A stretch of DNA of 43,834 bases, from the NCBI GenBank assembly GCA_947473045.1, contig CANJCO010000042.1:1-43834 (forward strand). The letters are read 5' to 3'. Of the stretch, positions 2,670 to 29,713 are shown one piece after another (the stretch's first letter is position 1; every line of letters starts with the position of its first letter). The translations under genes were made by a program, and so were the position numbers. The DNA is from Myxococcales bacterium (lineage in GTDB: Bacteria; Myxococcota_A; Polyangia; Polyangiales; Polyangiaceae). The notes under the pieces were generated by a model that was given only the letters and a program-made list of their open reading frames with translations, made no database searches and was not told the origin of the DNA.

Positions 2670-2676
2670 GTCGACG

Positions 2677-3312: not shown

Positions 3313-3333
3313 AGGGACCCAACGCATAGAGAG

Positions 3334-3353
3334 CCTTGCGCGCCGCCGCAAGG
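3334..3353. repeat. Inverted repeat (7-bp stem) between unknown gene and methyltransferase gene
   Basis: CCTTGCG and CGCAAGG flank a 6-nt loop. It lies in the 119-nt gap after the methyltransferase-like gene on the minus strand. There is no T-run, so it is at best a weak terminator or a 5' leader hairpin of the downstream gene. Confidence 0.4.
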
Positions 3354-3431
3354 GACGAGGACTCGCGGGCAGTGATCGGCGCGAAGAACAGCGGCGCGCG
3401 CCGTATGGAACGGGAGCCGCGAAGGCCAAGT

Positions 3432-6331: not shown

Positions 6332-6637
6332 GCTTGGGAGCGGTGAGCGTCGCCGGTGCCGCATCGACGCGCGACGACCACCAAAGCCGCGGGGCGTGCC
6401 ACGGTCAAGTCGCCACTCGTAAATTCAGTAGGTCGGCCCCGCTCCGCGGCTCAGCATTGGAACGCAGGACGCGCGCAAAGGATGCGCGCTGGAATTGCGC
6501 CTCCGATGAAGGGCCGTCCCGCCGCTGCCGGCCGCGCTGCCGACCCAGCCACCCCGCGGCGGCGGCGCGCAGTAAGCGGCAAGCTCCCGAAACACTTCCG
6601 GCATCCGCGCAGCCTGCGCATGCAGTAGCGTGCGCAC
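6332..6637. other. Divergent intergenic region
   Basis: This 306-nt gap separates the divergently transcribed kinase (minus) and PH-domain protein (plus) and must hold promoters for both. I see a GCGCGC/GCGCGC inverted repeat around 6470-6489 and a GC-rich tract near 6550-6570. I see no convincing -35/-10 pair, RNA gene or short gene. Confidence 0.4.
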
Positions 6638-7081
6638 ATGGCTGGATCCAGGCGTGCGCTGCTCGACGGAGAGAATCTCATTTGGGAGGGTCGCCCCTCG
6701 TGGCGAGCGTTCGCAGGGGCGACGATCCTCGGTTGGGCGCTGTCGATCGTGCTGGTCGGTTTCGTGATTCTCGCGGTGCTCGAGGTCAAGAAGCGCTCGG
6801 TCGCGTGGATGGTCTCGAGCCGTCGCATCGAGATCGAGCGCGGCTTTCTCTCCCGCCGCATCGACACGCTCGAGCTGTGGCGCATCAAAGACGTCGAGTT
6901 TCGCCAGAACCTGTGGGAGCGCATGGTCGGCGCCAGCACCATCATCGTGACCGCGCGCGACGAGGTCGATCCGGTCGTGCAGCTTCGCGGCATGCCCGGC
7001 GATCGAAGCGTGTTCGATCAGCTGTCGAACGCGGTGCTGGTCGCGCGCCAGCAGCGCGGCGTGATGAACGTCGCGCAGTAA
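6638..7081 (+). CDS. PH-domain (bPH2-type) membrane protein
   Basis: A 147-residue protein with a central hydrophobic hairpin (about residues 28-50, TILGWALSIVLVGFVILAVL) followed by a bacterial PH-like domain: WMVSSRRIEIERGFLSRRIDTLELWRIKDVEF is the hallmark of the YdbS/bPH2 family (SxRRIEIExGxLSRxxxxLELxRIxDV). These proteins sit in the cytoplasmic membrane with a cytosolic PH domain; their partners are usually unknown. The start ATG at 6638 follows GTGCGCAC with only a weak ribosome binding site. It is transcribed alone and converges on the pntAB operon, leaving only 19 nt between stops. Confidence 0.85.
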   Translation: MAGSRRALLDGENLIWEGRPSWRAFAGATILGWALSIVLVGFVILAVLEVKKRSVAWMVSSRRIEIERGFLSRRIDTLELWRIKDVEFRQNLWERMVGASTIIVTARDEVDPVVQLRGMPGDRSVFDQLSNAVLVARQQRGVMNVAQ

Positions 7082-12351: not shown

Positions 12352-12954
12352 ATGGCCCGTCTTCTTGCTTCGGTATTCGTTGCGGCCTCGGCCGCTGTGG
12401 TCGCGCTCGCTCACTGCGGGGGCAGCGTCGCCGTGACTCCGCCGCCGCCGCCGGGGGTGCGTTTCCCCAAGGCGCATCGTGCCGCTGCTGAGGCCTGTCC
12501 CTCCACCCGTCCCCCCGGCATTGGTTTGCCGGTCGACGCCGGGCCCGCGGTCGACGCGGGGATATCCGACCCCAACGCGTGCCGTTGGGACGGCGATTGT
12601 ACGAAAGGCAAGAACGGGCGCTGCTCCGGCACGCGCTTCGGGCTCCAGTGCACCTACGACGCCTGTTTCGTCGATGCTGATTGTTCGTCTGGAGCGGCCT
12701 GTTTGTGCAGCGGAAATGGCAACTACTGCGGGACGGGAACTTGCCTGTCGGACGCGACGTGCGGGGGACGCGGGTGCTCTCCTACGCTCGATTTCACCTG
12801 CGGCAGTTACGGCGGCACGCGGGGCTATTATTGCCATACAGCGGCCGATACGTGCGTCGACGACACCGACTGTACGGAAGGCGGAATGGGCTTCTGCGGC
12901 TACGATCCGGCGGCGTCTCACTGGAGCTGCAGCTATTCGGGTTGCGCGGGATGA
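12352..12954 (+). CDS. Cysteine-rich secreted lipoprotein
   Basis: A 200-residue probable lipoprotein: signal peptide MARLLASVFVAASAAVVALAHC with lipobox LAHC, then a Pro-rich linker. The remaining 150 residues hold about 20 cysteines in repeated short motifs (CRWDGDC, CFVDADCSSGAACLC, CLSDATCGGRGC, CVDDTDC). The DxDC spacing is common in secreted proteins of Myxococcota and suggests a disulphide-knotted surface domain. No function is recognised. I chose the ATG at 12352 because it begins the signal peptide; the frame is open 45 codons further upstream without a sensible N-terminus. Its stop overlaps the start of the di-haem cytochrome gene (ATGA), so the two are made together. Confidence 0.85.
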   Translation: MARLLASVFVAASAAVVALAHCGGSVAVTPPPPPGVRFPKAHRAAAEACPSTRPPGIGLPVDAGPAVDAGISDPNACRWDGDCTKGKNGRCSGTRFGLQCTYDACFVDADCSSGAACLCSGNGNYCGTGTCLSDATCGGRGCSPTLDFTCGSYGGTRGYYCHTAADTCVDDTDCTEGGMGFCGYDPAASHWSCSYSGCAG

Positions 12955-14237
12955 GCGTTCGCGGCGCGACCGTTCGCGCGTCGCTCGCCCTTGCCGCCGT
13001 GCTCGCAGGTGGCGCATGCGTGGCCGCCGCGCCTTCTGCCCAGGTTCGCTATCTCAGCGACTCCCACTCGCGCCGGGCCTCGCTCGAGGCGTCGCTCGTC
13101 AATCGCGATAACGGATATTCGACGTTGCGACTCGCGCGATATGCCACCGGCACATCGGGAGACTGGGACGCCCTGCCTGAATGGAACCCGCCCGCGGAGC
13201 CGCTCGACGCCGCGATGCTCGCCACGCCGCGCGCGCCCGTCGCTGCCGGCGCAGCTCCGCTCGGGGTGGATGCCGCGGCGAGCAGCGGCGATATTGCGGC
13301 CCTGCGCGCGCTCGGAGAGGCGGCGTTCTTTCGGTATCCCGCGCAGCTGCTCGACGCGGCCGAGGTGGTCACCAGTGAGGCGATCGCGGCACGGTACGGG
13401 CTTTGGACCGACGCGGGGCACGGGGTCGGTGGCCTCGTTCGACTCCGCACGACCGACGGCGTGACGCATCTCGCAGTCTCGTGCGCTACGTGTCACGCAG
13501 CGCAGCGCGGCGACTGCCTGAGCGTCGGCGTGGGCAACGACCGGCTCGACGTCGGCGCGCTCCTCGTCGACGCGAGGCGCGGCGCCGGGCCTGCGTCAGC
13601 CGCGCAGCTCGCCTGGGGGCCGGGCCGCCTGGATGTCACGACCTTGGATGGATCCGAGCCGGTGCGCATCCCCGATCTGCGCCCGGTTCGCTCGCTGGGT
13701 TACTTGCATCATACAGCGAGCGTCGAGCAGCGCGATGAGACCAGCCTCGCGGTGCGCCTCGAAACGCTCATCATCACGTCGAACGGGCAGGCGGTCAGGC
13801 CGCCGCGCGCCATCGCGCTCGGGCTCGCGATCTACGTGCGATCCCTTGCAGACGGACTCGCCGCGCGCCCCCCGCAGTCCGATGCCGCGCTGCGGGGCCA
13901 GTCGCTCTTCATGGCTCACTGCTCCGGCTGTCACGCGCCGCCCTCGTTCACCGGGCGCCCGGTCGCGATCGACCTGGTGGGTACCGATCCGGTCGTCGGG
14001 CGTTCGCGCGAGCGGGGCACCGGCACCTACCGCGTGCCCTCGCTGCTGGGCGTCGCAGGCCGCGGGCTGCTGTTGCATGATGCAAGCATCTCTTCGGTGT
14101 CCGAGCTCCTTGATCCCGCCCGGACCGGCGCCGACTATCGCGGCAGGCTTGGCGGCCCCGCACCCGGCCACCGGTTCGGTCTCGACCTCGCCGCCGAAGA
14201 CCGCGCCGCGATCGCCGCCTTCGTCGCCGGGCTTTGA
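12951..14237 (+). CDS. Secreted di-haem c-type cytochrome
   Basis: A 428-residue exported protein with two CxxCH haem sites: SCATCHAAQ (around residue 178) and HCSGCHAPPSF (around residue 324). The C-terminal half has the pattern of the cytochrome c peroxidase/MauG-type superfamily (RGTGTYRVPSLLGVAGRGLLLHDASISSVSELL), where a loop after the second haem ends in a short LHD segment. The N-terminus is a signal sequence (ATVRASLALAAVLAGGACVAAAPSA); cleavage by signal peptidase I or II is possible because the lipobox is imperfect. Its ATG at 12951 overlaps the lipoprotein stop. Electron partner and substrate are unknown. A GC-rich hairpin follows 14 nt after the stop. Confidence 0.9.
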   Translation: MSVRGATVRASLALAAVLAGGACVAAAPSAQVRYLSDSHSRRASLEASLVNRDNGYSTLRLARYATGTSGDWDALPEWNPPAEPLDAAMLATPRAPVAAGAAPLGVDAAASSGDIAALRALGEAAFFRYPAQLLDAAEVVTSEAIAARYGLWTDAGHGVGGLVRLRTTDGVTHLAVSCATCHAAQRGDCLSVGVGNDRLDVGALLVDARRGAGPASAAQLAWGPGRLDVTTLDGSEPVRIPDLRPVRSLGYLHHTASVEQRDETSLAVRLETLIITSNGQAVRPPRAIALGLAIYVRSLADGLAARPPQSDAALRGQSLFMAHCSGCHAPPSFTGRPVAIDLVGTDPVVGRSRERGTGTYRVPSLLGVAGRGLLLHDASISSVSELLDPARTGADYRGRLGGPAPGHRFGLDLAAEDRAAIAAFVAGL

Positions 14238-14251
14238 GCCACAAAAGCGAA

Positions 14252-14279
14252 GCGCCCGGGGAGCGTGTCGCCCGGGCGC
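14252..14279. terminator. Bidirectional hairpin between convergent genes
   Basis: A perfect 9-bp stem (GCGCCCGGG / CCCGGGCGC) with a 10-nt loop, 14 nt after the plus-strand cytochrome stop. No long T-run follows on the plus strand; the minus strand has a CTTTTG downstream. It probably helps end transcription of the plus-strand operon. Confidence 0.6.
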
Positions 14280-14318: not shown

Positions 14319-15695
14319 CTAGATCTGCAGTGCGTTCACCAGACCGGCGATCGAGCCGCCGCGGTAGAAATCCTGCACGCGGCGCATATCACCCTTCGCG
14401 ACTGCGAACGCGGCTGCCGCTGCGGCTGCGTTGGAATTCGCCTGACTTGAGATGTTCGCCGTGTCGCCGGTGGCCGGATCGTAGCCCGATACATTGCGGT
14501 TTTCGTCGATGCCGCCGAACCAGCCCGTCTTGAGATAGCCGTTTCCGAATACGTACATCCAGTTGGCATTTCCGGGAGTGCCGTCGGGCCAGCCGCTTCG
14601 GACGGTCGGGTCCTTCGGGGTGTCGCCGTGGATGGTCATGACGATGCCGTCGGCCAGCGTCTTGCCGCAGCCCGAGGGATCGGGCGTCGCAGCGCAATCG
14701 GCCATGAACGCGTCGAAGATCTTGCCGAGCGCGACGACGTTGGACTGAAGCGTCGCCATGTTGTTGAACGCGCCGTGCGGGTCGTCCCGCATGGCCGGAA
14801 TGATGAGCGAGCTGGTGAGTCCGAGCTTGAACGCACGGGCCGCGATGGCGAGCGAGCGACCGATCTCGACGATGTTCGTAGGCGCACCCGCGATGCCGTA
14901 GCGCACGTCGTCGGCAGCGGTGGGCTGCAGCTGGGCCGAGAGGTTTTTGCCGAGCAGATCGGCGGCGACCTTGGCGCTGGTGATCGGTTTGTCGAGGGTC
15001 TTGCGGCCTGACGCAGCGTTGAGGCTGGCGAAGGCGTTGTAGTATGCGTCGTTGAGCTTCGCGGCTTCGGGCGTCTGCAGGAGCGTGCGCGACGCGGCGC
15101 TGTTGAAGAGATCGACGAGGCCCGAAGAGTTCGCGACCGTGGCGACGCCCGGCGCGCCGGGGGCGGCGCCAAACGTAACTGGATTGACGCCAATCACCGG
15201 AAGCAGCGTCGGATTGGCCTGCTGAATCGCAGCGATGGCGGCGATCATGCCCATACCGGTGCCGATCGTGGCGGCGGACTGCGGAGTCGACGTGTGCGTC
15301 TCGTTGCTCCCGGCCATCATCGCCGTGATCTGCCTCTTGGGGCCGAGCGTCTGGAACGGTGACTCGGGCGCGTAGACGAGGGGCTTGTTGGTGCCTGCCA
15401 CCTTCGTGGCCTTGCCGAGCGCGTGGAACGCGGCGTTGCCATCGCCCTTCAGCGCGACGCCCACGTGCGGGAAGAGCAGCTGAAACCAGGCGAATCCGCC
15501 GTTTCCGGCCACGAGGTGCACGCTGCGGTTGGTGGTGGGACACGCGGCCTGATCGGCCATCGCGACGCCCGCGCTGTCACCGAGCACGTTGAGGAAGCGG
15601 CTTCGCTCGAGACCGAGCACGGCCGCCACGGTCGCGCTCCAGCGAAGAAAGTCACGCCTGCCGGTGCCGCGGAGTTCTTTGAGCCTTTGATCCAT
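14319..15695 (-). CDS. Tat-exported DUF1501-like protein
   Basis: A 458-residue exported protein. The N-terminus has a twin-arginine signal (TGRRDFLRWSATVAAVLGL). The body resembles DUF1501 proteins, a secreted alkaline-phosphatase-like fold typically paired with DUF1549/DUF1553 or DUF1800 proteins. Segments seen are GGFAWFQLLFPHVG, AMMAGSNETHTSTPQ, GLTSSLIIPAMRDDPHGAFNNM, IVMTIHGDTPKDP and GNANWMYVFGNGYLKTGWFGGI. Catalytic residues cannot be assigned. The start at 15693-15695 is preceded by AGGAG at good spacing. It is the last of four minus-strand genes, 11 nt behind the small lipoprotein, and is followed immediately by a terminator. Tat export suggests a cofactor or folding before export. 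Confidence 0.8.
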   Translation of the reverse strand: MDQRLKELRGTGRRDFLRWSATVAAVLGLERSRFLNVLGDSAGVAMADQAACPTTNRSVHLVAGNGGFAWFQLLFPHVGVALKGDGNAAFHALGKATKVAGTNKPLVYAPESPFQTLGPKRQITAMMAGSNETHTSTPQSAATIGTGMGMIAAIAAIQQANPTLLPVIGVNPVTFGAAPGAPGVATVANSSGLVDLFNSAASRTLLQTPEAAKLNDAYYNAFASLNAASGRKTLDKPITSAKVAADLLGKNLSAQLQPTAADDVRYGIAGAPTNIVEIGRSLAIAARAFKLGLTSSLIIPAMRDDPHGAFNNMATLQSNVVALGKIFDAFMADCAATPDPSGCGKTLADGIVMTIHGDTPKDPTVRSGWPDGTPGNANWMYVFGNGYLKTGWFGGIDENRNVSGYDPATGDTANISSQANSNAAAAAAAFAVAKGDMRRVQDFYRGGSIAGLVNALQI

Positions 15696-15706
15696 TTGCG
15701 TAACTC

Positions 15707-16399
15707 CTATTCGCAGGTGTGAGCCGCCTCGAGGATCGAGGCGATGGCGATTTGCTGGCCCTGGGCAGCGGTCATTCCCTTTTGCTGCGCGACTGTGACG
15801 GCGTCGTTGGCGACGGTCACGTGGTCGTCGCTCGCCGGCTTCCCCATCAGGCACGAGAGGCCGTCCTTGGTGAAGTTGCCGCTTCCGTCAACGAGCTGCG
15901 TCTGCGGACACGCAGCCATGGTCGCCGCGCCGGACTGAATCTCCTGCGCCGCGATCACGAAGATGTCGAACTGCTTCGACAGCGCAGCCGTCGATGCGAT
16001 CACAGCCTCCGGCACGCGACCGCCGTAGTTGGCGAGGCCCAGGGCCGAGGCGCCTTGCGTGTAGAGTGCACCGGCCGAGCCCTGCTTCTTGTTCGCGGTG
16101 TCGACCCCGCGCGTCGCGAGGATTGAGCCCAGCGAGGCGTAGGTGATCTTCGAGCACGAGTGAAGGCGGGCGATGACCTCGGGAGAGCCGACCGCAGCCG
16201 TTTCCGTTCGTACCTGCGAGGGATCGGTAATCCCGTTTTCACCGCTGTTCGGGTCCTGGAAGTGGTGCTGCGTATTGGCGCCGGCGGCGAGCGAGTCGTC
16301 GTACCAGCCGCCGCCGAGCAGGCGGTCGTTGCTTTCGGTCGCGCAACCCGCCGCCGCGAAGGCGAGGGTTCCGATCAGGGAGAGGGCGATGAGCTTCAT
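15707..16399 (-). CDS. Lipoprotein of unknown function in redox operon
   Basis: A 230-residue lipoprotein: MKLIALSLIGTLAFAAAGC signal with lipobox AAGC. The mature protein has four further cysteines (LHSCSKIT, MAACPQTQ, LSCLMGK, and a C-terminal AHTCE) that could form two disulphides, and helix-forming stretches such as IASTAALSKQFDIFVIAAQEIQ. No haem motif or known domain is recognised. An AAAGGA ribosome binding site precedes the ATG. It lies 20 nt behind the DUF1549-like gene and 11 nt before the DUF1501-like gene, so it is probably a subunit or accessory protein of the same secreted complex. Confidence 0.78.
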   Translation of the reverse strand: MKLIALSLIGTLAFAAAGCATESNDRLLGGGWYDDSLAAGANTQHHFQDPNSGENGITDPSQVRTETAAVGSPEVIARLHSCSKITYASLGSILATRGVDTANKKQGSAGALYTQGASALGLANYGGRVPEAVIASTAALSKQFDIFVIAAQEIQSGAATMAACPQTQLVDGSGNFTKDGLSCLMGKPASDDHVTVANDAVTVAQQKGMTAAQGQQIAIASILEAAHTCE

Positions 16400-16419
16400 T
16401 TTCTTGATTCCTTTCCCGA

Positions 16420-17697
16420 TTAGAACTTCACGAAATCGTCGGCGGTGAAGATATTGCGAATGAGGCGCTTGAGCTTGAAGCCGTTCGCGGTGAAATCGGC
16501 GACGAGCGGGTCAGTGACGACCGGCGGCACGGTGGCCAGATCGTTGACGACGTCGGCGCGGCTCATCGCGAAGTTCCACTCTCGGGTCACGATGCAGCGG
16601 GCGACGTCGGCATCTGCGGCGATCGCCTTGCCGTAGCTGGCGAGGTCGGTGACGGTGGTGCCGTTGCGCCAGGCGAAGCTCTCTCCGCCGGGGAGCCAGT
16701 CTTCGAGCTTGGCCGTGGGCGTCCCGGTCGAGGGAACCTTGACCTGAATGTCCTTTTGGTAGGCGCCTTTTTCATCAAAGTTCGCAAACAGCGGCGCGGC
16801 GTGGTTCATCGAAGTATGGCAATTGGCGCATACGACCGATGACGTGTCCTGGAAATTGACGCGCACCGTCTGGGCGTTTCCGCCGGAGATGCTGTTGAAG
16901 TTCCACGGGCTCGTGTAAACCCCGCCGCCCATGGGCGTGGGCGTGGACGTGAACTCGGCCGGAAACTTCGAGCAGACAAATGTTTCCTGAACGAAGCGCA
17001 CGCGGCGAAATGCCATGTTCGCATAGTACTGCGACATGATGCCCGGGTCGGTGAGCAGGCCCGCGGTCGGGCCGGTGCCGCCGCAGCTCGCGTCGGTGAA
17101 CTTGCCATTCGCGTAAGTCGGGCAGGTATTGGTGCTCGCGGTAAACAAGTCGGTATAGGGGCGGTCGGTGACGACGACCTCGGCGGCGAACGTGGCTGCC
17201 GTGTCGAAGCTCGGCATTCCGTTCTTCGGCGCGCCTTGCTGACCCGTTTTGAGGGTGTCTCTCCACCACTGAATCTGGCGCGCTGTAAATCGCGGGTCCG
17301 ACAGCATCGCGTCGATCTTGCTCTCGTAGGCGGCCTTGGTAGCCGCGTTCGTCGAGTCGGCCATCAGCGCGACGTCGGCGAGCGCGGGCAGCTCACCGAC
17401 GAGCTTGAGGCTCGCAGTGCGGAGGGCTTCTCCGTAATTGACCTTGCGCTTGTCGATATTGGGATTGGACGCGGCCTGGGGATCGGCGCCGCTCGCTCCG
17501 GGCTGCGTGCCGGGAGGCGTTCCGCCCGAGCCCGGGTTCGAAGCGCTGCCGTTCTGGGTGGCGGGATCGGGATTGCCTGAGAACGTTTCGCCGGCGAGCG
17601 AGTCGCTGCTCGAATTCCCGCAGGCCGCGACGGCCGCTACGAGACCGAACGCTGCAGACAGCGCGACGAGCGAGGCGTGACGCGGAGTGGTTCGCAT
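16420..17697 (-). CDS. DUF1549-like mono-haem lipoprotein
   Basis: A 425-residue lipoprotein (signal MRTTPRHASLVALSAAFGLVAAVAAC). A Ser/Gly/Pro linker (about 27-75) precedes a domain that resembles DUF1549: YGEALRTASLKLVGELPALADVAL and YESKIDAMLSDPRFTARQIQWWRDTL. One haem site follows (VVCANCHTSMNH). The C-terminus (LKRLIRNIFTADDFVKF) resembles the ends of DUF1585/DUF1553-type proteins. Such proteins are exported and often encoded next to DUF1501 partners, as here; their biochemical role is unknown. The start at 17695-17697 follows AAGGAAGG; the frame is open 17 codons further upstream. It lies 47 nt behind the di-haem lipoprotein gene. Confidence 0.8.
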   Translation of the reverse strand: MRTTPRHASLVALSAAFGLVAAVAACGNSSSDSLAGETFSGNPDPATQNGSASNPGSGGTPPGTQPGASGADPQAASNPNIDKRKVNYGEALRTASLKLVGELPALADVALMADSTNAATKAAYESKIDAMLSDPRFTARQIQWWRDTLKTGQQGAPKNGMPSFDTAATFAAEVVVTDRPYTDLFTASTNTCPTYANGKFTDASCGGTGPTAGLLTDPGIMSQYYANMAFRRVRFVQETFVCSKFPAEFTSTPTPMGGGVYTSPWNFNSISGGNAQTVRVNFQDTSSVVCANCHTSMNHAAPLFANFDEKGAYQKDIQVKVPSTGTPTAKLEDWLPGGESFAWRNGTTVTDLASYGKAIAADADVARCIVTREWNFAMSRADVVNDLATVPPVVTDPLVADFTANGFKLKRLIRNIFTADDFVKF

Positions 17698-17744
17698 AGG
17701 AGACCTTCCTTTCAATACGCTACGGTGAGTCACGATTACCTCGC

Positions 17745-18914
17745 TCATTCCTTGGTTGCCCAGGCCATCAGGGCCTGGTAGCCGGCTGCGCCGGTGGTGC
17801 CGTAGGGCTTACCGCCCCCGTGATTGAGTCCGCTGCCTGCGAGGGGCGCGAGCAGGAGGCTGCTCTGCGCCTTGTTCGCGAGATTGAGCTTGAAGTGCGC
17901 CTGTTCACAGGCCCCGGCGAAGTCGTTCTGCTTCAGCTTCGACAGATCGAGCGCGCCGGTGGCGTTGGCGTTGCCGCCGCCGTGGCAGCCGACGCAGCTC
18001 TTCGACAGCTCGGGCGCCGCCGAGGTCTGGAAGCCTGCGAGGTCTTTGCAGGTCGGCTGCGCGCCGGCGTCGGGGGAGGCGACCGTCGCCGCGTCGAATT
18101 TGGCAAATTCGATTTTGAGCTGACTGCCGGCAATCCAGTTGAAGAAGAAGAACGGAGTCGCCAGCGAGACGGTTTGGCCAGCAGCGATGCTTACGTCGAC
18201 CGCGGAGTAGCTCTTGTCGGCAAGCTGGGGCGACTTGTCCTGCGGCACCATCACGAACACGGGCGCGACGACGTGAATGCCGGTGCCGGTCGGGGCGACG
18301 AGCTGCACGCTGTCGAAGCGGGCGTAGTTACCGGCGACCTGCGCGCTGAACACGAGCTTTGCGCCGGCCATGCCGGCGGCGATCGTCGACAGATCGATGA
18401 CACCCTGGGAGAGGTCTACGGGACCTGCTCCGGGCAGCGGCGTCGCGGAGAGCACGGCGGCCTCGGCGGTCAGCCACGTCGTTACGTCCGCCTTGAGCTG
18501 CTCGTTGCCCGGGTCGACGAGGGTCGCGGCGGGGTGACCGGCGGGTCGGTTGACCAGCTTGCTGGCGTAGACGTCGGCGACGACGATGCCCGGGTAGGCC
18601 TTCGCAGACACATAGGAGTCGGGGCCAGCGAGCCACCTGGGGGCGTTGAGGGTTGCGCCTGTCGCGTGGCAAGCGCCTCCGCACTTCGACTCGAGGGCGG
18701 GCTGCACCTTGCGGTAGGCCGCCTCCGCCTGGCTCGGGGTCGCCGCGGCGTCGCCGCCGCTGTAGCTCGGGCCGCCGCCGCCGTTGCCCCACGAGCCGGC
18801 GCCGTTGCCCGTGCCGTCGAGGGAGCTGTTACCGCCGTCGCCGCACGCGAGGAGGGAGGATGTCGTCGCGAAGGTCGCGATCGCGATGAGCTTGATGGTT
18901 GCCAGCTTCGTCAT
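17745..18914 (-). CDS. Di-haem lipoprotein, first gene of the redox operon
   Basis: A 389-residue lipoprotein (MTKLATIKLIAIATFATTSSLLACGDG; lipobox LLAC). A Gly/Ser-rich linker follows. Haem site 1 is unusual, CGGACH (a CX3CH spacing, around residue 81). Haem site 2 is a regular CVGCHGGGN near residue 309. Between them lies a beta-rich domain (VVAPVFVMVPQDKSPQ, VDVSIAAGQTVSLATPFFFFNWIAGSQLKIEF). The pattern CHxxG...ALDLSKL resembles planctomycete-type cytochrome c domains. An AAGGAGG ribosome binding site lies close to the ATG at 18912-18914. A candidate sigma-54 promoter lies upstream. It heads the operon ending at 14319. Confidence 0.85.
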   Translation of the reverse strand: MTKLATIKLIAIATFATTSSLLACGDGGNSSLDGTGNGAGSWGNGGGGPSYSGGDAAATPSQAEAAYRKVQPALESKCGGACHATGATLNAPRWLAGPDSYVSAKAYPGIVVADVYASKLVNRPAGHPAATLVDPGNEQLKADVTTWLTAEAAVLSATPLPGAGPVDLSQGVIDLSTIAAGMAGAKLVFSAQVAGNYARFDSVQLVAPTGTGIHVVAPVFVMVPQDKSPQLADKSYSAVDVSIAAGQTVSLATPFFFFNWIAGSQLKIEFAKFDAATVASPDAGAQPTCKDLAGFQTSAAPELSKSCVGCHGGGNANATGALDLSKLKQNDFAGACEQAHFKLNLANKAQSSLLLAPLAGSGLNHGGGKPYGTTGAAGYQALMAWATKE

Positions 18915-19061: not shown

Positions 19062-19078
19062 GCGCCCCTCAGGGGCGC
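19062..19078. repeat. Hairpin spanning the stop codon of the FHA protein gene
   Basis: A perfect 7-bp palindrome, GCGCCCC-TCA-GGGGCGC; the 3-nt loop is the stop codon of the last Tad-locus gene. There is no T-run, so terminator function is uncertain, but it is the only stable structure at the end of the operon. Confidence 0.45.
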
Positions 19079-20388
19079 ACGATCTTGAGGCCTAGAATGC
19101 GCGCGGCCTCCGCGTAGGTCTCGTGTCGGGGATCTTGCGGAGGCGTCGTGGCCGCCAGCTGCTCGTACGCGGCCGCGGCGCCGCGGTAGTCGTTGGAGGC
19201 GAGGGCGTCGGCCGCCTGCCGCTCCAGCGACTTCGGGGGCGGCGCCCCCTTCGCTGTGGCCGCGGTGGCGGACGGCGGGGCGACAGCGGACGCGACGGGT
19301 GGCACGTAGGCGGGGGCCGTCTGTGTGGCTGCCGCGGTGGCGGCGGGGATCGGGTCGGGCTTCGCAGCCACCGCGCTCGCGCTCGCAGCAGCCTGTGCGC
19401 GGCGCGCTTCGATCGCTTCGTCAGCGGCCATCTGCTCTTTGCGGTGCTGGCCGGCGACGAGCACCGCCAGAAGCACCGGCATCAGCAAGAACATGACCTT
19501 TTTGGGCAGCGAAGTGTCGGTCCAGTCCTTCTTCATTCGCGCCAGAAGCGACGTCTCACCGGCGGCGCGAAGCGACATCTGGGTCTGCTGCGGCAAGTGG
19601 TGCGGCGCTGGCGCCGTCGCGAGCGGCGCCCCCGGAGCGGGCGCGCCCCACGGCTGCAAGGTCTGATTCATCGGCCGGTGCGTTTGTGGCATTTCGTCGG
19701 CGGCAGCGAGCTGCACGCTTCCGAACGCCTGATAGGCGGGCACTTGCGGCGGCAGCGGGGCGGGTCCGGAGATCGTGCGCGACTCGGGAGCCCTGTCGCC
19801 CGCGGGCGAGAAATTCGGCGCGGCGGCTGGCAGACCTGCCGCGGGTCGCGGGCGGCCCTGGCCCGGTCGCGCTTCGTCGGCGTGCAGAGGGGCGACGATG
19901 GTGGGTTCGGGCTCGCCAAGCCCGGCAGGATTCGGCGGCGCTGCCACCGGCTGCGCGGCCATCTGCGGACGAGCCTGCGACTGCAGCGATGCTCGCATCT
20001 GCGGGGAGACCAACGCCTCGCGGGCGATCGTTCGCTCGTCGTCTTCTTCCTCGGCTTCGTCGAGGTCGAGGTCTTCGACGGTTCGGAACACCAGCCGGGC
20101 GCCGCCGATTTCGAGCGTGCTCGGACTCTCGATTTGCTGCCACGTGCTACCGATCGCACGCCCGTTGCTCTTCGCCGGGTTGCGCTCGTCCGAGCTCTGA
20201 ACGAACAGCCCGTGGCCGTCGAAGTAGAAATACGCGTGCACGGGCAGCACGCCCGGCGCGTCGATCGACCAAGCGGCCGATCGGCCCACGCTCATGGGCT
20301 GAAGTTGGGTTCCCGGCGACAGCTCGAGCATGCTGCGCGCCGACGAGCCTGTGCGAACTTCGATGATCTGAACGGCGCCGTCAGCCAT
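19069..20388 (-). CDS. FHA-like domain / single-TM / periplasmic protein, last gene of Tad-like locus
   Basis: A 439-residue membrane protein. Residues about 1-110 form a diverged FHA-like domain (MSVGRSAAWSID, LPVHAYFYFDGHGLFVQ, AKSNGRAIG): the GR and NG positions survive, but the Ser of SxxH is lost. It is followed by an acidic patch (DLDLDEAEEEDDER), a long Pro/Ala/Gln-rich linker (about 125-275), a basic juxtamembrane segment (MKKDWTDTSLPKK), one TM helix (VMFLLMPVLLAVLVAG) and a periplasmic part ending in a TPR-like helix pair (AADALASNDYRGAAAAYEQLAA). The layout resembles the inner-membrane ring proteins of type III secretion (SctD). The start at 20386-20388 overlaps the end of the second CpaF gene by 8 nt; an ATG ten codons upstream is possible. 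Confidence 0.82.
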   Translation of the reverse strand: MADGAVQIIEVRTGSSARSMLELSPGTQLQPMSVGRSAAWSIDAPGVLPVHAYFYFDGHGLFVQSSDERNPAKSNGRAIGSTWQQIESPSTLEIGGARLVFRTVEDLDLDEAEEEDDERTIAREALVSPQMRASLQSQARPQMAAQPVAAPPNPAGLGEPEPTIVAPLHADEARPGQGRPRPAAGLPAAAPNFSPAGDRAPESRTISGPAPLPPQVPAYQAFGSVQLAAADEMPQTHRPMNQTLQPWGAPAPGAPLATAPAPHHLPQQTQMSLRAAGETSLLARMKKDWTDTSLPKKVMFLLMPVLLAVLVAGQHRKEQMAADEAIEARRAQAAASASAVAAKPDPIPAATAAATQTAPAYVPPVASAVAPPSATAATAKGAPPPKSLERQAADALASNDYRGAAAAYEQLAATTPPQDPRHETYAEAARILGLKIVRP

Positions 20389-21523
20389 GGGTTTGAACTG
20401 GCCCACGGCTCGCAGCATCGTACATCGACGCGGGGATGTCCATGCCGTGCTCGTGCAGCACGTTGAGGCATTTCGGCAGCACGCCCGAGGGCACGAAATC
20501 GGACAGAACTTCGCCGCCCGGGCCGAAGCCGTTGTAGCGCCGCACGAAGACGTCCTGGGTGAGGTAAGTGTCGGTCTTCGGGTCGAACCCGGTGACCTCG
20601 GTGATGTGCGTGATTTTGCGTGAGCCGTCCTGAAGGCGACCCGTCTGCACGATGAGATTCACTGCGCTCGCGAGCTGAATGCGAAGCGCGAAGAGCGGCA
20701 TGCTCACGTCGCTCATCATTGCCATTGTTTCGAGGCGCGCGAGCGTGTCCTTCGGATACGTCGCGTGAAGCGTCGACAGGCATCCGCCGTGGCCCGAGGT
20801 CATGGCCTGGATGAGATCGAGCGCTTCTCCGCCACGAATCTCGCCGACCACGATGCGGTCCGGGCGCATGCGCAGGGTCGCCCGAAACAAGTCGCGAATG
20901 GTGACAGCTCCGCGGCCTTTCGGATCGGGCGGGCGCGCCTCGAGCTGCACGACGTGATCGCGCTGCAGCTGCAGCTCGCGCGAGTCTTCGAGCACGACCA
21001 CGCGCTCGCCCTCGGGAATGAACGACGACAGGGCGTTGAGCATCGAGGTCTTGCCGGAGCCGGTGCCGCCTGCCACGAGAATGTTGAGCTTGCTCGCAAC
21101 GAAGGCGTGCAGCGCCACGGCGGCGTCTTCGGGCATCGCGCCAAAGCCGATGAGCTTCTCGACCGTGAGCGTCTCCTGAAAGAAGCGCCGGATGGCGACG
21201 TGCGGCCCGTCAGGCGCAGCAGGCGGGAGGATGGCCTCGATGCGCGAGCCGTCGGGAAGGCGGCCTTCGAGAATCGGTCTCTGCTCGTCGATGTGTTTGC
21301 CGACGTACTGCGCCATGTTGCGCAAAGCGGCCGTGAGCGCCTCGCGGCTCTCGAATTTTGCGGGCACCAGCTCGAGCCGCCCTTTGCGCTCGATGTAAAT
21401 CTGGTTGGGGCCGTTGATCATCACCTCGCTCACCGAGGGATCCTCGAGGTACCTGCGCACAGGCTCGAGGAACTGCATGATGGTCTCTGCGAAGACCTCC
21501 TTGGGAATCGTCTGGGCGGTCAT
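20381..21523 (-). CDS. CpaF/TadA-family secretion ATPase (second copy, no FHA domain)
   Basis: A 380-residue hexameric secretion ATPase of the CpaF/TadA (T2SSE) family that would energise assembly from the cytosolic side. Motifs: SVSEVMINGPNQIYIERKG, HIDEQRPILEGRLPDGSRI, Walker [13 protein letters not shown] (about residues 150-161), Asp box (VVLEDSRELQLQ), Walker [17 protein letters not shown] and the His box SGHGGCLSTLHATYP. It lacks the N-terminal extension of the first ATPase in the locus and has an extra C-terminal tail (VFVRRYNGFGPGGEVLSDFVPSGVLPKC). Both ATPases keep all catalytic motifs. The gene lies 56 nt behind the TPR lipoprotein gene and overlaps the following FHA gene. Confidence 0.93.
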   Translation of the reverse strand: MTAQTIPKEVFAETIMQFLEPVRRYLEDPSVSEVMINGPNQIYIERKGRLELVPAKFESREALTAALRNMAQYVGKHIDEQRPILEGRLPDGSRIEAILPPAAPDGPHVAIRRFFQETLTVEKLIGFGAMPEDAAVALHAFVASKLNILVAGGTGSGKTSMLNALSSFIPEGERVVVLEDSRELQLQRDHVVQLEARPPDPKGRGAVTIRDLFRATLRMRPDRIVVGEIRGGEALDLIQAMTSGHGGCLSTLHATYPKDTLARLETMAMMSDVSMPLFALRIQLASAVNLIVQTGRLQDGSRKITHITEVTGFDPKTDTYLTQDVFVRRYNGFGPGGEVLSDFVPSGVLPKCLNVLHEHGMDIPASMYDAASRGPVQTHG

Positions 21524-21579
21524 GGGGCAGGTCTCTTCGTCTCCCTCGCCCGCGCGTCGCGAGGGTCGGGCGTTCCATG

Positions 21580-22275
21580 TTAGCGCGCCGCGGGCGCCGG
21601 GCGTGGCGTCGTTTGCATCGGGCTCGCAGGGGGGTCGGCGGCAGGGGGCAAAATCAGGGTTGGCGCCGCGCCCGCGCCCGCGCCCGCGTCTGCCGGCGTC
21701 GCCGCGGCCGGCGGAGGCACGGCCAGCAATCTCGACGCGCGCGCCTCATCGGCGTGCACGCCGCGCGGAGCGAGCGCGAGGTACTCGCGAAACTGGGCGT
21801 CTGCGCCCACGCGATCGCCGGCGTCACGAAGCACGGTGGCGAGCAGAAAATGGGGCTCGGGCTCTGCCGGTCGCGCAGCGATCACGCCCTCGGCCTCGGC
21901 CTGCGCGCGGTCGAGATCGCCGACGCCGGCGTAGAGCGTCGCCAGCACGTAGCGCGTCCTGTGATCGCCGGGATGCTTGCCGAGGTAGGGCCGCGCGTAT
22001 TCGATCGCCATCTGATAGCGACCGTCGCGCACGCAGATCTCCAGCAGCAGCGGCGTGATCTTCGTTTCGTCGCCCCCGCGCTCGAGCGCTGCGGCGAGGT
22101 ATTCCTCGGCACGCGTCGTGTCGCCAACCGCCGCAAAAGCGCGGCCCGCCTCCACGAGCTGCGCCGGCGTCTCCTGCTTGCCGAGCTTCTCGGCGTTCTT
22201 AATGCGATCGCTTGTAGGAGGTCCGCACGCGACCAGCGTCGCGACGAGACCGAGCAGCGCAGCCGTCCCGCGCAA
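21580..22275 (-). CDS. TPR lipoprotein (TadD-like)
   Basis: A 231-residue lipoprotein with signal RGTAALLGLVATLVAC (lipobox LVAC). Helical repeats follow: AQLVEAGRAFAAVGDTTRAEEYLAAALERG, PLLLEICVRDGRYQMAIEYARPYLGKHPGD, YVLATLYAGVGDLDRAQAEAEGVIAARP and FLLATVLRDAGDRVGADAQFREYLAL. These are TPRs, matching the role of TadD, the outer-membrane-side lipoprotein that supports secretin assembly. The C-terminus is low-complexity Ala/Pro, coded by a short tandem of GCGCCC units around 21665-21690. The start codon is TTG (22273-22275), two bases after the preceding stop; no ATG or GTG fits the signal peptide. Confidence 0.85.
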   Translation of the reverse strand: MRGTAALLGLVATLVACGPPTSDRIKNAEKLGKQETPAQLVEAGRAFAAVGDTTRAEEYLAAALERGGDETKITPLLLEICVRDGRYQMAIEYARPYLGKHPGDHRTRYVLATLYAGVGDLDRAQAEAEGVIAARPAEPEPHFLLATVLRDAGDRVGADAQFREYLALAPRGVHADEARASRLLAVPPPAAATPADAGAGAGAAPTLILPPAADPPASPMQTTPRPAPAAR

Positions 22276-22277
22276 GG

Positions 22278-23141
22278 CTACGACGCCGAGCGCCCGAGCG
22301 CCTGCTTCATCTGCCGATCAGTCTCGTTCAGAAAGTCGACGAACTTCCCGTCCTTGCCCTGGAGCATCTCGATGAGGGTGCGCGCCTCTTTGTGCGTTGA
22401 CGGTTTGTCGCCCACTTCGAGGGCGTGGCGCAGCCGCAGCACGTGCGTCCGGTAGTCGTCTTCCATCTCTTTTTGCAGCTTGTTCGCGTCGTCGCTGGCC
22501 CGCTGATAGGCCTGCATGTCGCCGCCCTTTTTGAAGCAGGCTGCTGCGGTTTGATACAGCGGCACGGCTTCGACGCCGTCGTGCGCGTGGAAGGCGCGCC
22601 GCTCGCGCCGGCTGTCTGCGATGCCCTTCTGCTGCTGGGCATAGATGACGGCCTCGGCGGCAGAGCGATCGCACGCGTCGAGAGGCTGCGCCCACAGCGA
22701 AGGCACCTCATCGGGGATGCCGTTGTCGGGCGCCGCGTTGGCGTTGAGGATCATGAAGACGCCAAATCCGAGCCCGGCGAGCATGGCCACCATGAGCACG
22801 GGGTTGCTCTTCTCCGCCTTCTTCTTCGTCACCTTGTCGCCGCCGTCTTCGGCGATGGTGATCAGCATCTGCGTCTGACCAAGGCCGAGCACGGCCTCGG
22901 GAGGCAGCGGCGCCTGCGTGAAGGGAACGCCCCCGATCATGGGCGGTCGCTCGAAGTGCAGCGCCTGAACGAATACGCCGGCCGCGCCTACCTGTACGAG
23001 CACGTGCTCGCCGGCAGCCTGGTCGAGCGGCAGACGAATCTCGCAGTGCGCGCCGCTGCCGATGAGGGCCCGCTCGGCTTCGACCGAGATGACCTCCTGC
23101 TTGCCGTTGGCGTGCTGAATCTGGAACCGGAGAACGCTCAC
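22278..23141 (-). CDS. Degenerate FHA-like / single-TM / periplasmic protein
   Basis: A 287-residue membrane protein. Residues 1-95 look like a degenerate FHA domain (LRFQIQHANGKQEVISVEAERALIGSGAHCEIRL, AAGEHVLVQV, MIGGVPF). The phosphothreonine-binding Arg, Ser and Asn positions are mostly missing, so it may be a structural FHA fold only. A basic stretch (KVTKKKAEKSN) precedes one TM helix (PVLMVAMLAGLGFGVFMIL, about 114-133). The periplasmic part is helical with paired Cys (DACDRSAAEAV, AAACFKKGG) and ends in a charged coiled-coil-like region. The start is GTG at 23139-23141 with GGGAGG upstream. It lies between tadC (13 nt) and the TPR lipoprotein (2 nt). Topology again resembles SctD. Confidence 0.8.
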   Translation of the reverse strand: MSVLRFQIQHANGKQEVISVEAERALIGSGAHCEIRLPLDQAAGEHVLVQVGAAGVFVQALHFERPPMIGGVPFTQAPLPPEAVLGLGQTQMLITIAEDGGDKVTKKKAEKSNPVLMVAMLAGLGFGVFMILNANAAPDNGIPDEVPSLWAQPLDACDRSAAEAVIYAQQQKGIADSRRERRAFHAHDGVEAVPLYQTAAACFKKGGDMQAYQRASDDANKLQKEMEDDYRTHVLRLRHALEVGDKPSTHKEARTLIEMLQGKDGKFVDFLNETDRQMKQALGRSAS

Positions 23142-23154
23142 GAGTGGCCTCCCA

Positions 23155-24063
23155 TCAGCTTAGCGAGGTCATGACCTTCATGAGGATTGGCCCCATGATC
23201 AGGATCATGACTGTGATGAATACGAGCAGCAGCGGACCGACCATGGCGACGCCTGCCTTGGCGGCCAGCTCTTCGGCGCGAACGCTTCTCCGGGTGCGCG
23301 AGGAGGTCGCCTGAATCTGGAGAACCTCGCTGACCGGGTTGCCGCGCTCTTCCGCTTGCACGAGCGAGCCGGTGAACTCCTTCACCACGTCGATCGGGCA
23401 GCGGCGCGCGAACTCGAGCAGGGCCTCTTTGCGCGTGCGCCCGAGCTGCAGGCTCTGCAAGATGAGCGTAAACTCCTCAACAATCGGATCGCTCGGGTTG
23501 CTCGATTTCTCGACGACCTGGCGCACCGCGCCGGGGAAATCGAGGCCCGCGCCCATGGCCAGCGCCATGAGATCGATCACGTACGGAAGGCCGCGGCTCA
23601 CGCTCTTGAGTCGCTCCTGCGCGATGCCTGTAATATGCATGTAAGGAATGGCCGCGCCGATCGGACCGCCGACGATCAGCATCGTCGCGCCGCCCGTGTG
23701 GAAGCCGAAACCGACGATCGCGCCCACGATGAACCCGACGACCCCCGAGCCGATCATCAGCGCGAAGAACTCGTCACTCGTCATGCCGAGGTAGTCACCG
23801 GCGAAGCTGATCTGCTCGTCGAGACCGTTTCGGTGCTCTTCGCTGAGAATGCCGCTGACGCGCACCCCGAGCCACCGCACGAAGGGCTCGATCTGCGACC
23901 AGCCGTCTCCTGCCTGAACGGCGCGCTGGCGCTTGAGACCGCGGAGGCCGAGCCGCGGGGCGAGGCGGGTGGGGGCGCTGGCGACGCCGTAGACCGCGAA
24001 GAGAATCGCCATGCCCACGGCGGCCAGCATCAGCAGGCGAAAAACTTCATAACGAATGGTCAT
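23155..24063 (-). CDS. tadC: Tad inner-membrane platform protein TadC
   Basis: A 302-residue type II secretion F-domain (T2SSF) membrane protein that forms the platform driven by CpaF ATPase. The F-domain is clear: LPYVIDLMALAMGAGLDFPGAVRQVVEKSSN and EEFTLILQSLQLGRTRKEALLEFARRCP, ending with TM helices (VAMVGPLLLVFITVMILIMGPILMKVMTSL). N-terminal TM segments are MLAAVGMAILFAVYGVA and SGVVGFIVGAIVGFGF. The ATG at 24061-24063 overlaps the tadB stop by ATGA. A long open frame upstream of this ATG is the wrong frame of tadB. Confidence 0.93.
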   Translation of the reverse strand: MTIRYEVFRLLMLAAVGMAILFAVYGVASAPTRLAPRLGLRGLKRQRAVQAGDGWSQIEPFVRWLGVRVSGILSEEHRNGLDEQISFAGDYLGMTSDEFFALMIGSGVVGFIVGAIVGFGFHTGGATMLIVGGPIGAAIPYMHITGIAQERLKSVSRGLPYVIDLMALAMGAGLDFPGAVRQVVEKSSNPSDPIVEEFTLILQSLQLGRTRKEALLEFARRCPIDVVKEFTGSLVQAEERGNPVSEVLQIQATSSRTRRSVRAEELAAKAGVAMVGPLLLVFITVMILIMGPILMKVMTSLS

Positions 24064-24941
24064 ATGTCCACCGCCAGCACTTTGCGCGCGAGAATGAGCG
24101 CGCCTACCCAGCAGCCGGCTGCGCCGCCGGAAAGCATGTAGCCGAGCACGCTCGACTGCATGGGATCGAAGAAGCCGGGCGAGAGATAATTCATCATGAC
24201 GAGGATGAGCAGCGGCAGCGCGCCGATGACCCAAAGCTGCATCTTGCCCTCGGCCGTCTTGCTTCGAATGACGCCCTCGAGGCGCGACATCTCCCGCAGG
24301 CTCGTCGCGGTCGACTCGAGCACCTTGGCGAGGTTGCCACCGACTTGCCGGCCGATGAGAATCGCGCTGAGCGAAGCGTCGACCTGCCGGCTTCCGATGC
24401 GGGCGGCCATGTGGAGCAGCGCCTGATCGAGTGAGCTCCCGACCTTCATCTCCTTGGTCGCGAGCTCGACCTCGTCGCGAATGGGAGGCTGCAAAATGGG
24501 CACGACCGAGTTGAACGCGGCGCTGATGCTCGGAATGGCCTTGAGCGCGTTGGCCAGCGACATGACGAAGTTGTCGAGCTGCTCTTCGATCTTGGCGCGC
24601 CGCTTCACGCGCTCGTTTTCGATGTAGACGATCGGCCCGGCCGCGGCGGCGACCAGCCACACCGGAAAGAGCGGAAGCCCCTCGGGCAGCACGAAATGCG
24701 CGAGGCTGACCACCGCGAGCACGCCGACCTGCGCGAGGGCGATCACGCGTCCGGGGGTCCAGATGAACATCGGACGCAGCTTGCGCTCGAGCGTCGAGGT
24801 GTACCTGGCCCAGTAGCGGTTCGCGAGGCCGTCGACGTCGGACACGGCGTCGCGGACGGCGATGAAGATCCCGAAGGTCACCAGAAAAATGCCGCCCCAC
24901 TTGAGCAGGGGCAACACGAGCGCTGGGTTGAGCTCGGTCAT
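24060..24941 (-). CDS. tadB: Tad inner-membrane platform protein TadB
   Basis: A 293-residue T2SSF protein, partner of TadC. N-terminal helices include LLKWGGIFLVTFGIFIAV and VIALAQVGVLAVVSLAHFVL. The F-domain contains LDNFVMSLANALKAIPSISAAFNSVVPIL, LDQALLHMAARIGSRQVDASLSAILIGRQVGGNLAKVLESTATSLREM (typical TadB sequence RQVGGNLAEVL) and KMQLWVIGALPLLILVMMNYLSPGFF. A GGGGAGC ribosome binding site precedes the ATG. It lies 34 nt after the FHA-ATPase stop and overlaps tadC by four bases. Confidence 0.95.
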   Translation of the reverse strand: MTELNPALVLPLLKWGGIFLVTFGIFIAVRDAVSDVDGLANRYWARYTSTLERKLRPMFIWTPGRVIALAQVGVLAVVSLAHFVLPEGLPLFPVWLVAAAAGPIVYIENERVKRRAKIEEQLDNFVMSLANALKAIPSISAAFNSVVPILQPPIRDEVELATKEMKVGSSLDQALLHMAARIGSRQVDASLSAILIGRQVGGNLAKVLESTATSLREMSRLEGVIRSKTAEGKMQLWVIGALPLLILVMMNYLSPGFFDPMQSSVLGYMLSGGAAGCWVGALILARKVLAVDI

Positions 24942-24975
24942 GATGCTCCCCGAAGACCGCTTCCAATAAGGTGGA

Positions 24976-26790
24976 TCACAGGTACGGCTCTCCTTTCTGG
25001 ACGAGATTCATGACAATGAAATCCAGGAGGTACGATGGGAGGTAGCCGGTCGCGCGGTGCTCGCCGATGACCTTGCCGCCCGGGCCGGTCCCGGTGCGGA
25101 CGAACTCGAAAATCGGTCGAAGCTCGATCTCGCCCGTCTCGTCGATGCCGACAACTTCGCTGATCGCCGTGACCTTGCGCGAACCGTCCGACAGGCGCGA
25201 CTGCTGCACGATGACGTGAACGCTCGACGCGATCTGTTCGCGGATCGCCCGCACGGGCAAGTCGACGCCCGCCATGAGCACGAGCGTCTCGAGTCGGCTG
25301 ATGGCCTCGAGCGGCGAGTTGGCGTGCGTCGTCGTGAGCGACCCGTCGTGACCGGTGTTCATCGCCTGGAGCATGTCGAGGGCTTCGCCGCCTCGGCACT
25401 CGCCGACCACGATGCGATCCGGGCGCATGCGCAGGGCGTTCTTCACGAGGTCGCGGATGGTGTACTCGCCGCGGCCCTCGAGGTTGGCGGGCCGCGTTTC
25501 GAGCGAGACGACGTGCGGCTGTTTCAGCTGCAACTCTGCAGCGTCTTCGATGGTGACCACGCGCTCGTCGGCCGGAATGGCTCCGGAGAGGCAGTTGAGC
25601 AGGGTGGTCTTTCCGGAGCCAGTGCCGCCGGAAATGACGATGTTCTTCTTGGCGATGACGCTGCGGACGAGGAAGCGCGCCATGCGTTCGGTCAGCGCCG
25701 CGTAGCTCACGAGGTTGTCGAGCTGCAGGGGAGTCCGCGCGAATTTGCGAATCGTGATGCACGAGCCGCGCAGCGCGATCGGACGGATAACGGCGTTGAC
25801 GCGCGAGCCGTCTTTGAGGCGCGCGTCGACGAGCGGCGATGACTCGTCGATGCGGCGACCGAGGGGGGTGACGATGCGCTCGATGACGCCGCGCACGCGC
25901 TCGTCGTCGGTGAAGGTGACCTCGGAAAGCGTGAGCTTTCCCCGCTGCTCGATGTAAATCGTCTGGGGATCGACGACCATGATTTCGGTGATGGTCGGGT
26001 CCGAGAGAAAGTGCTCGAGTGGTCCGAGCCCAAGCGCCTCGTCGGCGAGCTCCCCGATGAGTTTGTCGCGATCGATCTCGGGGGGCACTTTGCCGACGCC
26101 GTCGAGGTTCTGAACGATGCGCCGCAGCGCGCCCAGCACCTTCGGGCGCATCGAAGCCTCTTCGAGCTTCGCAGTGTCGATGGTCGCCAGATCGAGGTGC
26201 TCGAGGAGAAACTTGTGAATCTCGCGCCGCAGCGCCACGTCGCGTGCCCGGTTCTTGCGCTTGACGTCGGCTGCGCCCAGCGCCGCGCTCGCCTGCTGCT
26301 CCGTCGACAGCGCCGGCTTGGGCTTGGTGCCGGTAGGCTCGACGACCGTGGGCCTCGGCGGCGGGGGCTTGAGGGGAGGCAGCGCGGACTGCGAGCGCGC
26401 GGCGGGCGGAGGCGCGGCAGCGGGGGCGGGTCGCCACGCGGCATTGTCGGTGGTCGCCAGGGAGGGAGCCATCGCGATCGGCGCCGACGCGACCTCTGCG
26501 GGCATCATGTAGACTGTGAAGTTCCCAACGACGATCGCGGTGCCGAAGGGAACTTCGAGCGACTCCCGTCGCAGGAGCGTCTCGCCGGCGAGCGTGCCGT
26601 TGGTCGAAACGTCCTCGACCCGCAGCGAGCTGGGACCGACGTGCACGACAGCGTGCTGACGCGAGACCATGTCGCTGTCGAGGCGCAGCACACAGTTGGG
26701 ATGCCGCCCGATGGAGATGGGTCCGGTGGGCTGGAATGTCTCCCGCCGCTCCTGCCCATCGTCGGATCGAACGACGACCTGAACGTTCAC
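24976..26790 (-). CDS. FHA-domain fused CpaF/TadA secretion ATPase
   Basis: A 604-residue ATPase with a canonical N-terminal FHA domain: GRHP (G28, R29), SRQH (S43-H46) and STNGT (N64, G65) are all intact, so phosphothreonine binding is likely. A Pro/Ala-rich linker (about 120-170) precedes a CpaF/TadA domain: [20 protein letters not shown]-like start, [20 protein letters not shown], Walker [12 protein letters not shown] (about 386-396), IEDAAELQL, Walker [20 protein letters not shown] and His box [15 protein letters not shown]. It would power assembly at the TadB/TadC platform. The start is GTG at 26788-26790. Fusing FHA to the ATPase suggests that Ser/Thr kinase signalling gates the machine. 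It lies 10 nt behind the secretin gene. Confidence 0.95.
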
Positions 26791-26800
26791 GTGCTGGCTC

Positions 26801-28914: not shown

Positions 28915-28964
28915 CACGCCCAACGTTATCTGCCTTCGCCGCGTTTGGGAACAGCGGCGCGGCG

Positions 28965-29639: not shown

Positions 29640-29713
29640 AGACCGACAGGCTAACATCCCTCACCGGCTCGTCCAACCCGGCCACGTGATAGCGTCGCCG
29701 GCGCGTGACAGCG

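Follow-up and report, generated by a model that had tools for sequence, protein, structure and literature searches.

Genes for PSCyt2 and PSCyt3 proteins usually lie beside two families of unknown genes, and a passage in PMC5615132 describes their functions as wholly unknown. Other excerpts report that DUF1501/DUF1800 pairs with a twin-arginine translocation (Tat) motif adjoin bacterial chitin synthase genes (PMC5122149) and suggest a redox role for DUF1549/DUF1553 (PMC2754498); DUF1588 and DUF1592 are merely listed in a passage of PMC7789669. Here we analysed a stretch of 43,834 nucleotides (the window; positions 1 to 43,834 of the forward strand of contig CANJCO010000042.1, assembly GCA_947473045.1) from a Myxococcales bacterium of the Polyangiaceae, in which four genes, g1 (P0004), g2 (P0003), g3 (P0002) and g4 (P0001), follow one another on the minus strand (18914-14319). 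We favour, with somewhat less than even confidence, the explanation that the products of this cassette assemble into a complex of the cell envelope that does redox chemistry and represents the secreted haem-protein/DUF1501 pair in split and expanded form. No description of such a four-gene cassette was found in the open-licence literature searched, nor any paper treating DUF1501 and DUF1549 together or one combining planctomycete-specific, cytochrome and myxobacteria.

The four genes are a genuine co-inherited unit. Out of 59 relatives' genomes, the same 11 give strong matches to all four proteins: P0001 matches 11 and P0002 the identical 11, P0003 matches 22 genomes with best E-values of at most 6.8e-77 in the 11 and of at least 5.8e-8 in the remaining 11, and P0004 matches 17, with E <= 9.2e-14 in the 11 and E >= 5.2e-8 in six more, in which only the C-terminal haem region is matched. 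Twenty regions were fetched around these matches: the full set of four, in order, is found in 12, contig ends truncate seven, and the remaining one (L042) carries a lone g4 homologue. In addition, genome contigs of 84,980 species were scanned with two peptide patterns built from seven close sequences, resulting in 46 organism-titled loci, some of which share contigs with the first 20 regions. Forty-two of these 46 loci contain all four genes with order and strand unchanged, bearing out a first-pass annotation of the window that had read them as one operon and proposed to look for them together elsewhere; three of the remaining loci (L090, L091 and L103) start at a contig end within the cassette and one (L135) is a lone g4 homologue. 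Chance clustering of the four genes is ruled out by their co-occurrence in the same 11 of 59 genomes and by this conserved order. The gaps between g1 and g2, g2 and g3, and g3 and g4 range from -25 to 286, -1 to 28 and 8 to 76 bases, respectively (41 measurable loci), and pairwise distances within the four families correlate with coefficients of 0.87-0.91 (47 loci).

The record titles of the titled loci name Myxococcota or delta/proteobacterial metagenome-assembled genomes, and isolates with the cassette include Polyangium species. No four-gene form was seen in Planctomycetota by the scan, whose two short peptide patterns could let distant forms outside Myxococcota escape. A g4 profile run against a sample of 377 genomes of the phylum matched 27, 25 of them in five families and two weakly (E 1.7e-6 and 3.7e-5), and the distribution is therefore patchy. 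Two or more copies of cassette genes are present in five genomes (G004, G006, G011, G015 and G029). In G006 a complete cassette on contig C4 is accompanied by three additional g3-g4 copies on C29, C35 and C58 (L040, L041 and L019), all at contig ends, possibly the product of a recent amplification. The two lone g4 homologues without g1-g3 (L042:9104-10351, minus strand; L135:6622-7944, plus strand) have a lipoprotein-type signal and no twin-arginine motif. A plasmid search with P0001 gave no match.

In the window the intergenic gaps are 47 (with the g2 start at 17697), 20 and 11 bases, and translations and positions confirmed the order, strand, coordinates and short gaps of the first-pass annotation. 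Its count of three lipoproteins, two of them with haem sites, also agrees with the lipobox cysteines and haem motifs in the translations. The lipobox Cys is residue 24 in g1, 43 in g2 and 19 in g3, and it is retained in 49 of 52, 49 of 50 and 51 of 54 aligned sequences, respectively. The alignments comprise 52 g1, 50 g2, 54 g3 and 56 g4 rows, with the earlier copies of twice-fetched loci excluded, truncated genes missing from some, and the relatives' start codons picked by a simple script. In total the cassette has three haem-c sites, two in g1 and one in g2. As for the terminator previously assigned to the operon, we found one candidate 3' of g4, a hairpin with a T-rich tail at 14253..14265 (minus strand); it is weak evidence because the region shows no excess over shuffled sequence, with three terminator-like sites against a mean of 4.6 in shuffles, that is, fewer.

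The core haem lipoprotein is g2 (16420..17748, minus strand), for which a start at 17697 is likelier than one at 17748 because of its better ribosome site. P0003 matches PF07583 (DUF1549) with E 1.4e-8 and 35.4 bits (cut-off 29.8), covering only model positions 22-120 of 209, and PF07627 (DUF1588) with 27.0 bits (cut-off 27). The match to PF07624 (DUF1585) is weak, with 19.0 bits below a cut-off of 25.8, and nine of 12 g2 relatives match this family at E <= 0.1; for DUF1553 the match is sub-threshold. The Pfam search with P0003 gave no DUF1587, DUF1595 or DUF1592 match, so that g2 lacks the full DUF1587-1595-1592-1588-1585 order, which is seen in L167. In profile comparisons, whose E-values here and below are those of single pairwise comparisons and not of database searches, the g2 core, over most of the length of g2, resembles DUF1592-type (DUF1592/DUF1588/DUF1585) proteins in their C-terminal two thirds (99.2%, E 1.3e-19). 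The DUF1549/DUF1553 set is matched with 93.9% over 65 columns and DUF1800 proteins with only 10.4% (E 0.003), a weak DUF1800 match being present in three of 12 g2 relatives (best E 0.0023). Judged from its sequence, g2 is thus not a plain DUF1549 protein, as most of its length resembles the DUF1592/DUF1588/DUF1585 proteins; the earlier label of a DUF1549-like member holds in that the PF07583 cut-off is passed. The haem site CANCH (residues 307-311; 16816..16830, minus strand) is strictly conserved, with C307, N309, C310 and H311 kept in 50 of 50 relatives.

The genome of the window also contains a two-gene form. On contig C68 (L194) a true DUF1501 gene is preceded, at a distance of 28 bases, by the gene for a 766-residue protein with two CxxCH motifs, in which Pfam finds weak DUF1549, DUF1588 and DUF1592 matches. 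Comparison with an alignment of three such proteins placed the g2 core on residues 160-532 of the C68 protein (98.3%, E 2e-14) and haem domain 1 of g1 on residues 42-123 (89.4%, E 2e-6; whole g1 core 80.6%, E 1.3e-5). What the cassette encodes as separate lipoproteins is joined in the two-gene form, and therefore contact between g1 and g2 is likely. By these sequence relationships the cassette appears as a haem-protein/DUF1501 pair that has been split and expanded and that includes a further lipoprotein.

The first gene, g1 (17745..18914, minus strand), encodes a lipoprotein of 389 residues, in which related domains at about residues 55-160 and 285-389 flank a middle domain. In a profile comparison these end domains resemble one another (97.5%, E 7.5e-12), and they read as duplicated mono-haem domains. 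Haem site 1, CGGACH with CX3CH spacing (residues 78-83; 18666..18683, minus strand), has its haem Cys and His in 52 of 52 sequences, and C310 and H311 of haem site 2, CVGCH (residues 307-311; 17982..17996, minus strand), are present in 51 of 52. The spacing at site 1 is CX2CH in 44, CX3CH in six, CX4CH in one and CX6CH in one of the 52 relatives, and at site 2 CX2CH in 43 and CX3CH in eight, with no motif in one; one and the same haem site of g1 thus changes between these forms from relative to relative (e.g. L093, L110 and L037), an unusual freedom of spacing. In Minicystis rosea (L097, around 5723-6987) the g1 open reading frame stops before haem site 2, and as the similarity runs on past its end, the sequence suggests a frameshift or a broken gene. 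Pfam gave nothing reliable for g1 and g3 and NCBIfam nothing for all four proteins, and among solved structures sought by sequence no convincing relative of g1, g2 or g4 was found.

The last gene, g4 (14319..15695, minus strand), codes for a DUF1501-like protein of 458 residues with a putative Tat export signal. Its twin-arginine motif RRDFL (15645..15659, minus strand) lies in GRRDFLRW at residues 12-19, the Pfam TAT_signal match (E 0.0084) falls short of the model cut-off, and a twin-arginine motif is present within the first 45 residues of 53 of 56 g4 relatives. The curated DUF1501 model PF07394 did not match P0001 at an E limit of 1, nor was P0001 among the eight matches in its own genome at E <= 10; further aligned g4 rows gave no match at E 0.1, and no g4 locus was among the matches listed for 30 genomes. 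The same model does find two genuine DUF1501 proteins in the genome of the window, on contigs C68 and C78. Along 135 C-terminal columns, a profile of 17 g4 proteins matched one of 19 DUF1501 relatives (96.3%, E 1.5e-9); an unrelated control (the g4 alignment A1 versus A3) gave 0.1% and the positive control, DUF1501 versus DUF1552, gave 98.1%. A DUF1552 / HXXSHH (PF07586) partner, as expected from the PSCyt3 likeness of g2, was rejected for g4 (4.1%, E 0.01; 7.9% in a later comparison).

An AlphaFold model of g4 built from 17 sequences (mean pLDDT, predicted local distance difference test, 74.5; pTM, predicted template modelling score, 0.78) has lipoteichoic acid synthase and nucleotide pyrophosphatases as its top Foldseek matches. 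In VIA the best match is ENPP1 (Z 11.7, root mean square deviation 4.5, 245 residues aligned), closely followed by sulfatases and the phosphatase PafA, and by title the 50 listed matches are phosphodiesterases, phosphatases, sulfatases and their kin. Based on the profile comparison and the predicted alkaline-phosphatase-type fold we regard g4 as a divergent relative of DUF1501 proteins that, as modelled, most likely belongs to the alkaline-phosphatase fold group, again as a divergent member. The Tat-exported DUF1501-like protein of the first-pass annotation is therefore retained as to its Tat motif and its remote relationship, which the curated model does not detect, and the cassette, with the PF07583 match of g2, has relatives in both the DUF1501 and the DUF1549 families.

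The fold of g4 raises the question whether the protein is a working metallo-hydrolase (of the phosphatase, sulfatase or phosphodiesterase type) whose substrate is an envelope polymer, with the cytochromes in support or as sensors and not as a source of electrons for the substrate. H134, D305, P306, H307, G357, D358, W369 and D371 are among the residues invariant in 56 of 56 g4 relatives, and H134, D305, H307, D358 and D371 could be enough for one metal site, which together with the predicted fold speaks for hydrolysis. The 19 DUF1501 relatives, however, share the signature columns D-x-H, FGRT and GxDH, of which g4 retains D-x-H alone (D305 and H307), the others being replaced, and conservation, the basis on which a two-metal site with nucleophile was judged, yielded no assignable nucleophile. 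As the haem proteins are moreover retained in every complete locus, we consider a hydrolase unlikely.

The remaining lipoprotein, g3 (15707..16399, minus strand; 230 residues), has no haem motif. It fits the small Cys lipoprotein proposed earlier as an extra partner, since beyond its lipobox Cys 82, 164, 183 and 229 are conserved in 54, 53, 54 and 54 of 54 sequences, respectively. The g3 model (pLDDT 81.5, pTM 0.65) is all-helical with a confident core, and fold searches with it were uninformative and pointed to no known fold (best Foldseek E 2.0, best VIA Z 3.9), just as no reliable Pfam family was found. As a candidate for the missing DUF1595-like piece of g2, g3 aligns with the right region, the N-terminal part of DUF1592-type proteins, over 64 columns; the match (1.7%, E 0.03) is not significant and serves as a lead only.

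These cysteines bear on a second alternative, in which g4 has no catalytic activity and serves as a scaffold or binds substrate, the whole unit being structural, for instance a component of an envelope or matrix layer, with haems that are stabilising or redox-sensing. The replaced motif residues of g4, the wealth of conserved disulfide-type Cys in g3 and g2 and the lack of a conserved neighbouring enzyme pathway would suit a structural role, but the strictly conserved charged residues of g4 and the haem Cys and His go beyond what a scaffold needs, and we judge this role improbable.

In the envelope redox complex that we favour, g1, g2 and g3 would be outer-membrane lipoproteins facing the periplasm or the outside. 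In E. coli, lipoproteins are sorted according to an Asp at position +2, a rule that may not apply in myxobacteria; by this rule the rarity of Asp at +2 (5 of 49 g1, 1 of 49 g2 and 3 of 51 g3 lipoproteins) fits outer-membrane sorting. g1 would be an electron relay to or from the g2 haem; g4, which the Tat system exports in folded form, would dock on g2 and hold substrate or metal; and g3 might be a disulfide-braced adaptor joining the parts. The likeliest job of such a complex would be to oxidise or reduce a substrate, e.g. a polymer, at the surface or in the periplasm, with electrons passing through the three haems. Electron transfer by the cassette, as put forward in the first-pass annotation, is plausible from its haem motifs. 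A bolder version, to which we give a low probability, makes the four proteins a new kind of redox enzyme of the envelope: g4, an alkaline-phosphatase-fold protein whose active site has been rebuilt, would hold a substrate for oxidation or reduction by the three haems.

Several observations weigh against the redox complex. Complex formation, haem loading, location and redox activity are all predicted from sequence motifs, and no further gene conserved in the flanks of the loci, for example one for a porin or a quinol oxidase, marks the cassette as part of a respiratory chain. The similarity between g4 and DUF1501 is restricted to the C-terminal third of g4 and falls to 93.6% (E 2.1e-7) with the 56-row g4 profile, and Foldseek with the g4 model gave no match at E 0.001, the best having E 0.25. 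Finally, the match of g1 to the N-terminus of the C68 protein may in part be generic cytochrome c similarity.

A Tad-type pilus/secretion locus (19069-29772, minus strand), encoding FHA, T2SSE ATPase, TPR, FHA, T2SSF, secretin and RcpC proteins, lies directly upstream of the cassette; a Tad-like killing apparatus is the subject of PMC8460266. That the cassette is an accessory of this same-strand locus is suggested by RcpC, secretin, T2SSF and T2SSE at 20381-29772, by the recurrence of the link in L026, L031/L110 and L033 and by an FHA relative in L035, but among the 46 scan loci only L110 has Tad genes in the available flanks (many of them short) and long flanks hold other genes, e.g. for S41 peptidase, TerB and HemD, so that with many loci lacking Tad genes such a general role is very unlikely.

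Flank clustering and Pfam searches found no fifth partner common to all loci; their common core is the four genes alone, and subgroups differ in their neighbours, 15 loci having a methyltransferase downstream and 11, all of one subgroup, a fatty-acid hydroxylase. The DUF3570 family occurs in the flanks of five loci (L031, L093, L117, L119 and L132; by Pfam on L031 and L117 and by clustering). On the other side of the cassette the window encodes a convergent cytochrome c protein (12681-14237, plus strand; Pfam Cytochrom_C E 4.5e-6, two CxxCH motifs), a homologue of which lies beside the cassette in a genome of the same genus (L002, around 2505-3476).

Some of these genomes carry dozens of PSCyt-type and DUF1501/DUF1552-type genes, whose job is still unexplained. 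If the bolder version above is true, the cassette would be the first DUF1501/PSCyt system with its parts separated enough for one-by-one dissection. Because haem domains, core, DUF1501-like partner and extra lipoprotein are encoded by separate genes, which are almost always found together, the cassette offers tractable genetics of a widespread system and allows one to ask whether the haem and DUF1501-type halves really act together.

In summary, the cassette is a real conserved arrangement, new to the literature searched, and appears to be a variant of established haem-protein/DUF1501 pairs. Among its closest known counterparts is the two-gene pair of a 757-790-residue di-haem PSCyt-like protein and a DUF1501 protein (L194 on C68 of the window's own genome, G000, as well as L195 and L196), with which it shares the type of N-terminal haem domain and the core; the haem protein gene lies upstream of the DUF1501 gene in L194 and L195. 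In that pair, however, the haem parts form one polypeptide instead of two lipoproteins, g3 is absent, and DUF1501 keeps the DTH, FGRT and GxDH columns, not all of which are kept by g4, whereas g1 of the cassette adds a second haem domain and the middle domain. With the PSCyt3-type pairs of DUF1587/1595/1592/1588/1585 and DUF1552 proteins, abundant in the same genomes, g2 shares the C-terminal two thirds and the CxxCH motif, but it lacks the DUF1587 and DUF1595 parts, and g4 has no DUF1552 match. The PSCyt2-type pairs of DUF1549/DUF1553 and DUF1501 proteins likewise combine a haem protein with a DUF1501-type partner, and P0003 passes the DUF1549 cut-off; its DUF1553 match, in contrast, is sub-threshold, and the cassette has two more lipoproteins. 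DUF1800/DUF1501 pairs, finally, have in common with the cassette a DUF1501-type partner and the weak DUF1800 matches in a few g2 relatives, whereas the profile similarity between g2 and DUF1800 is low.

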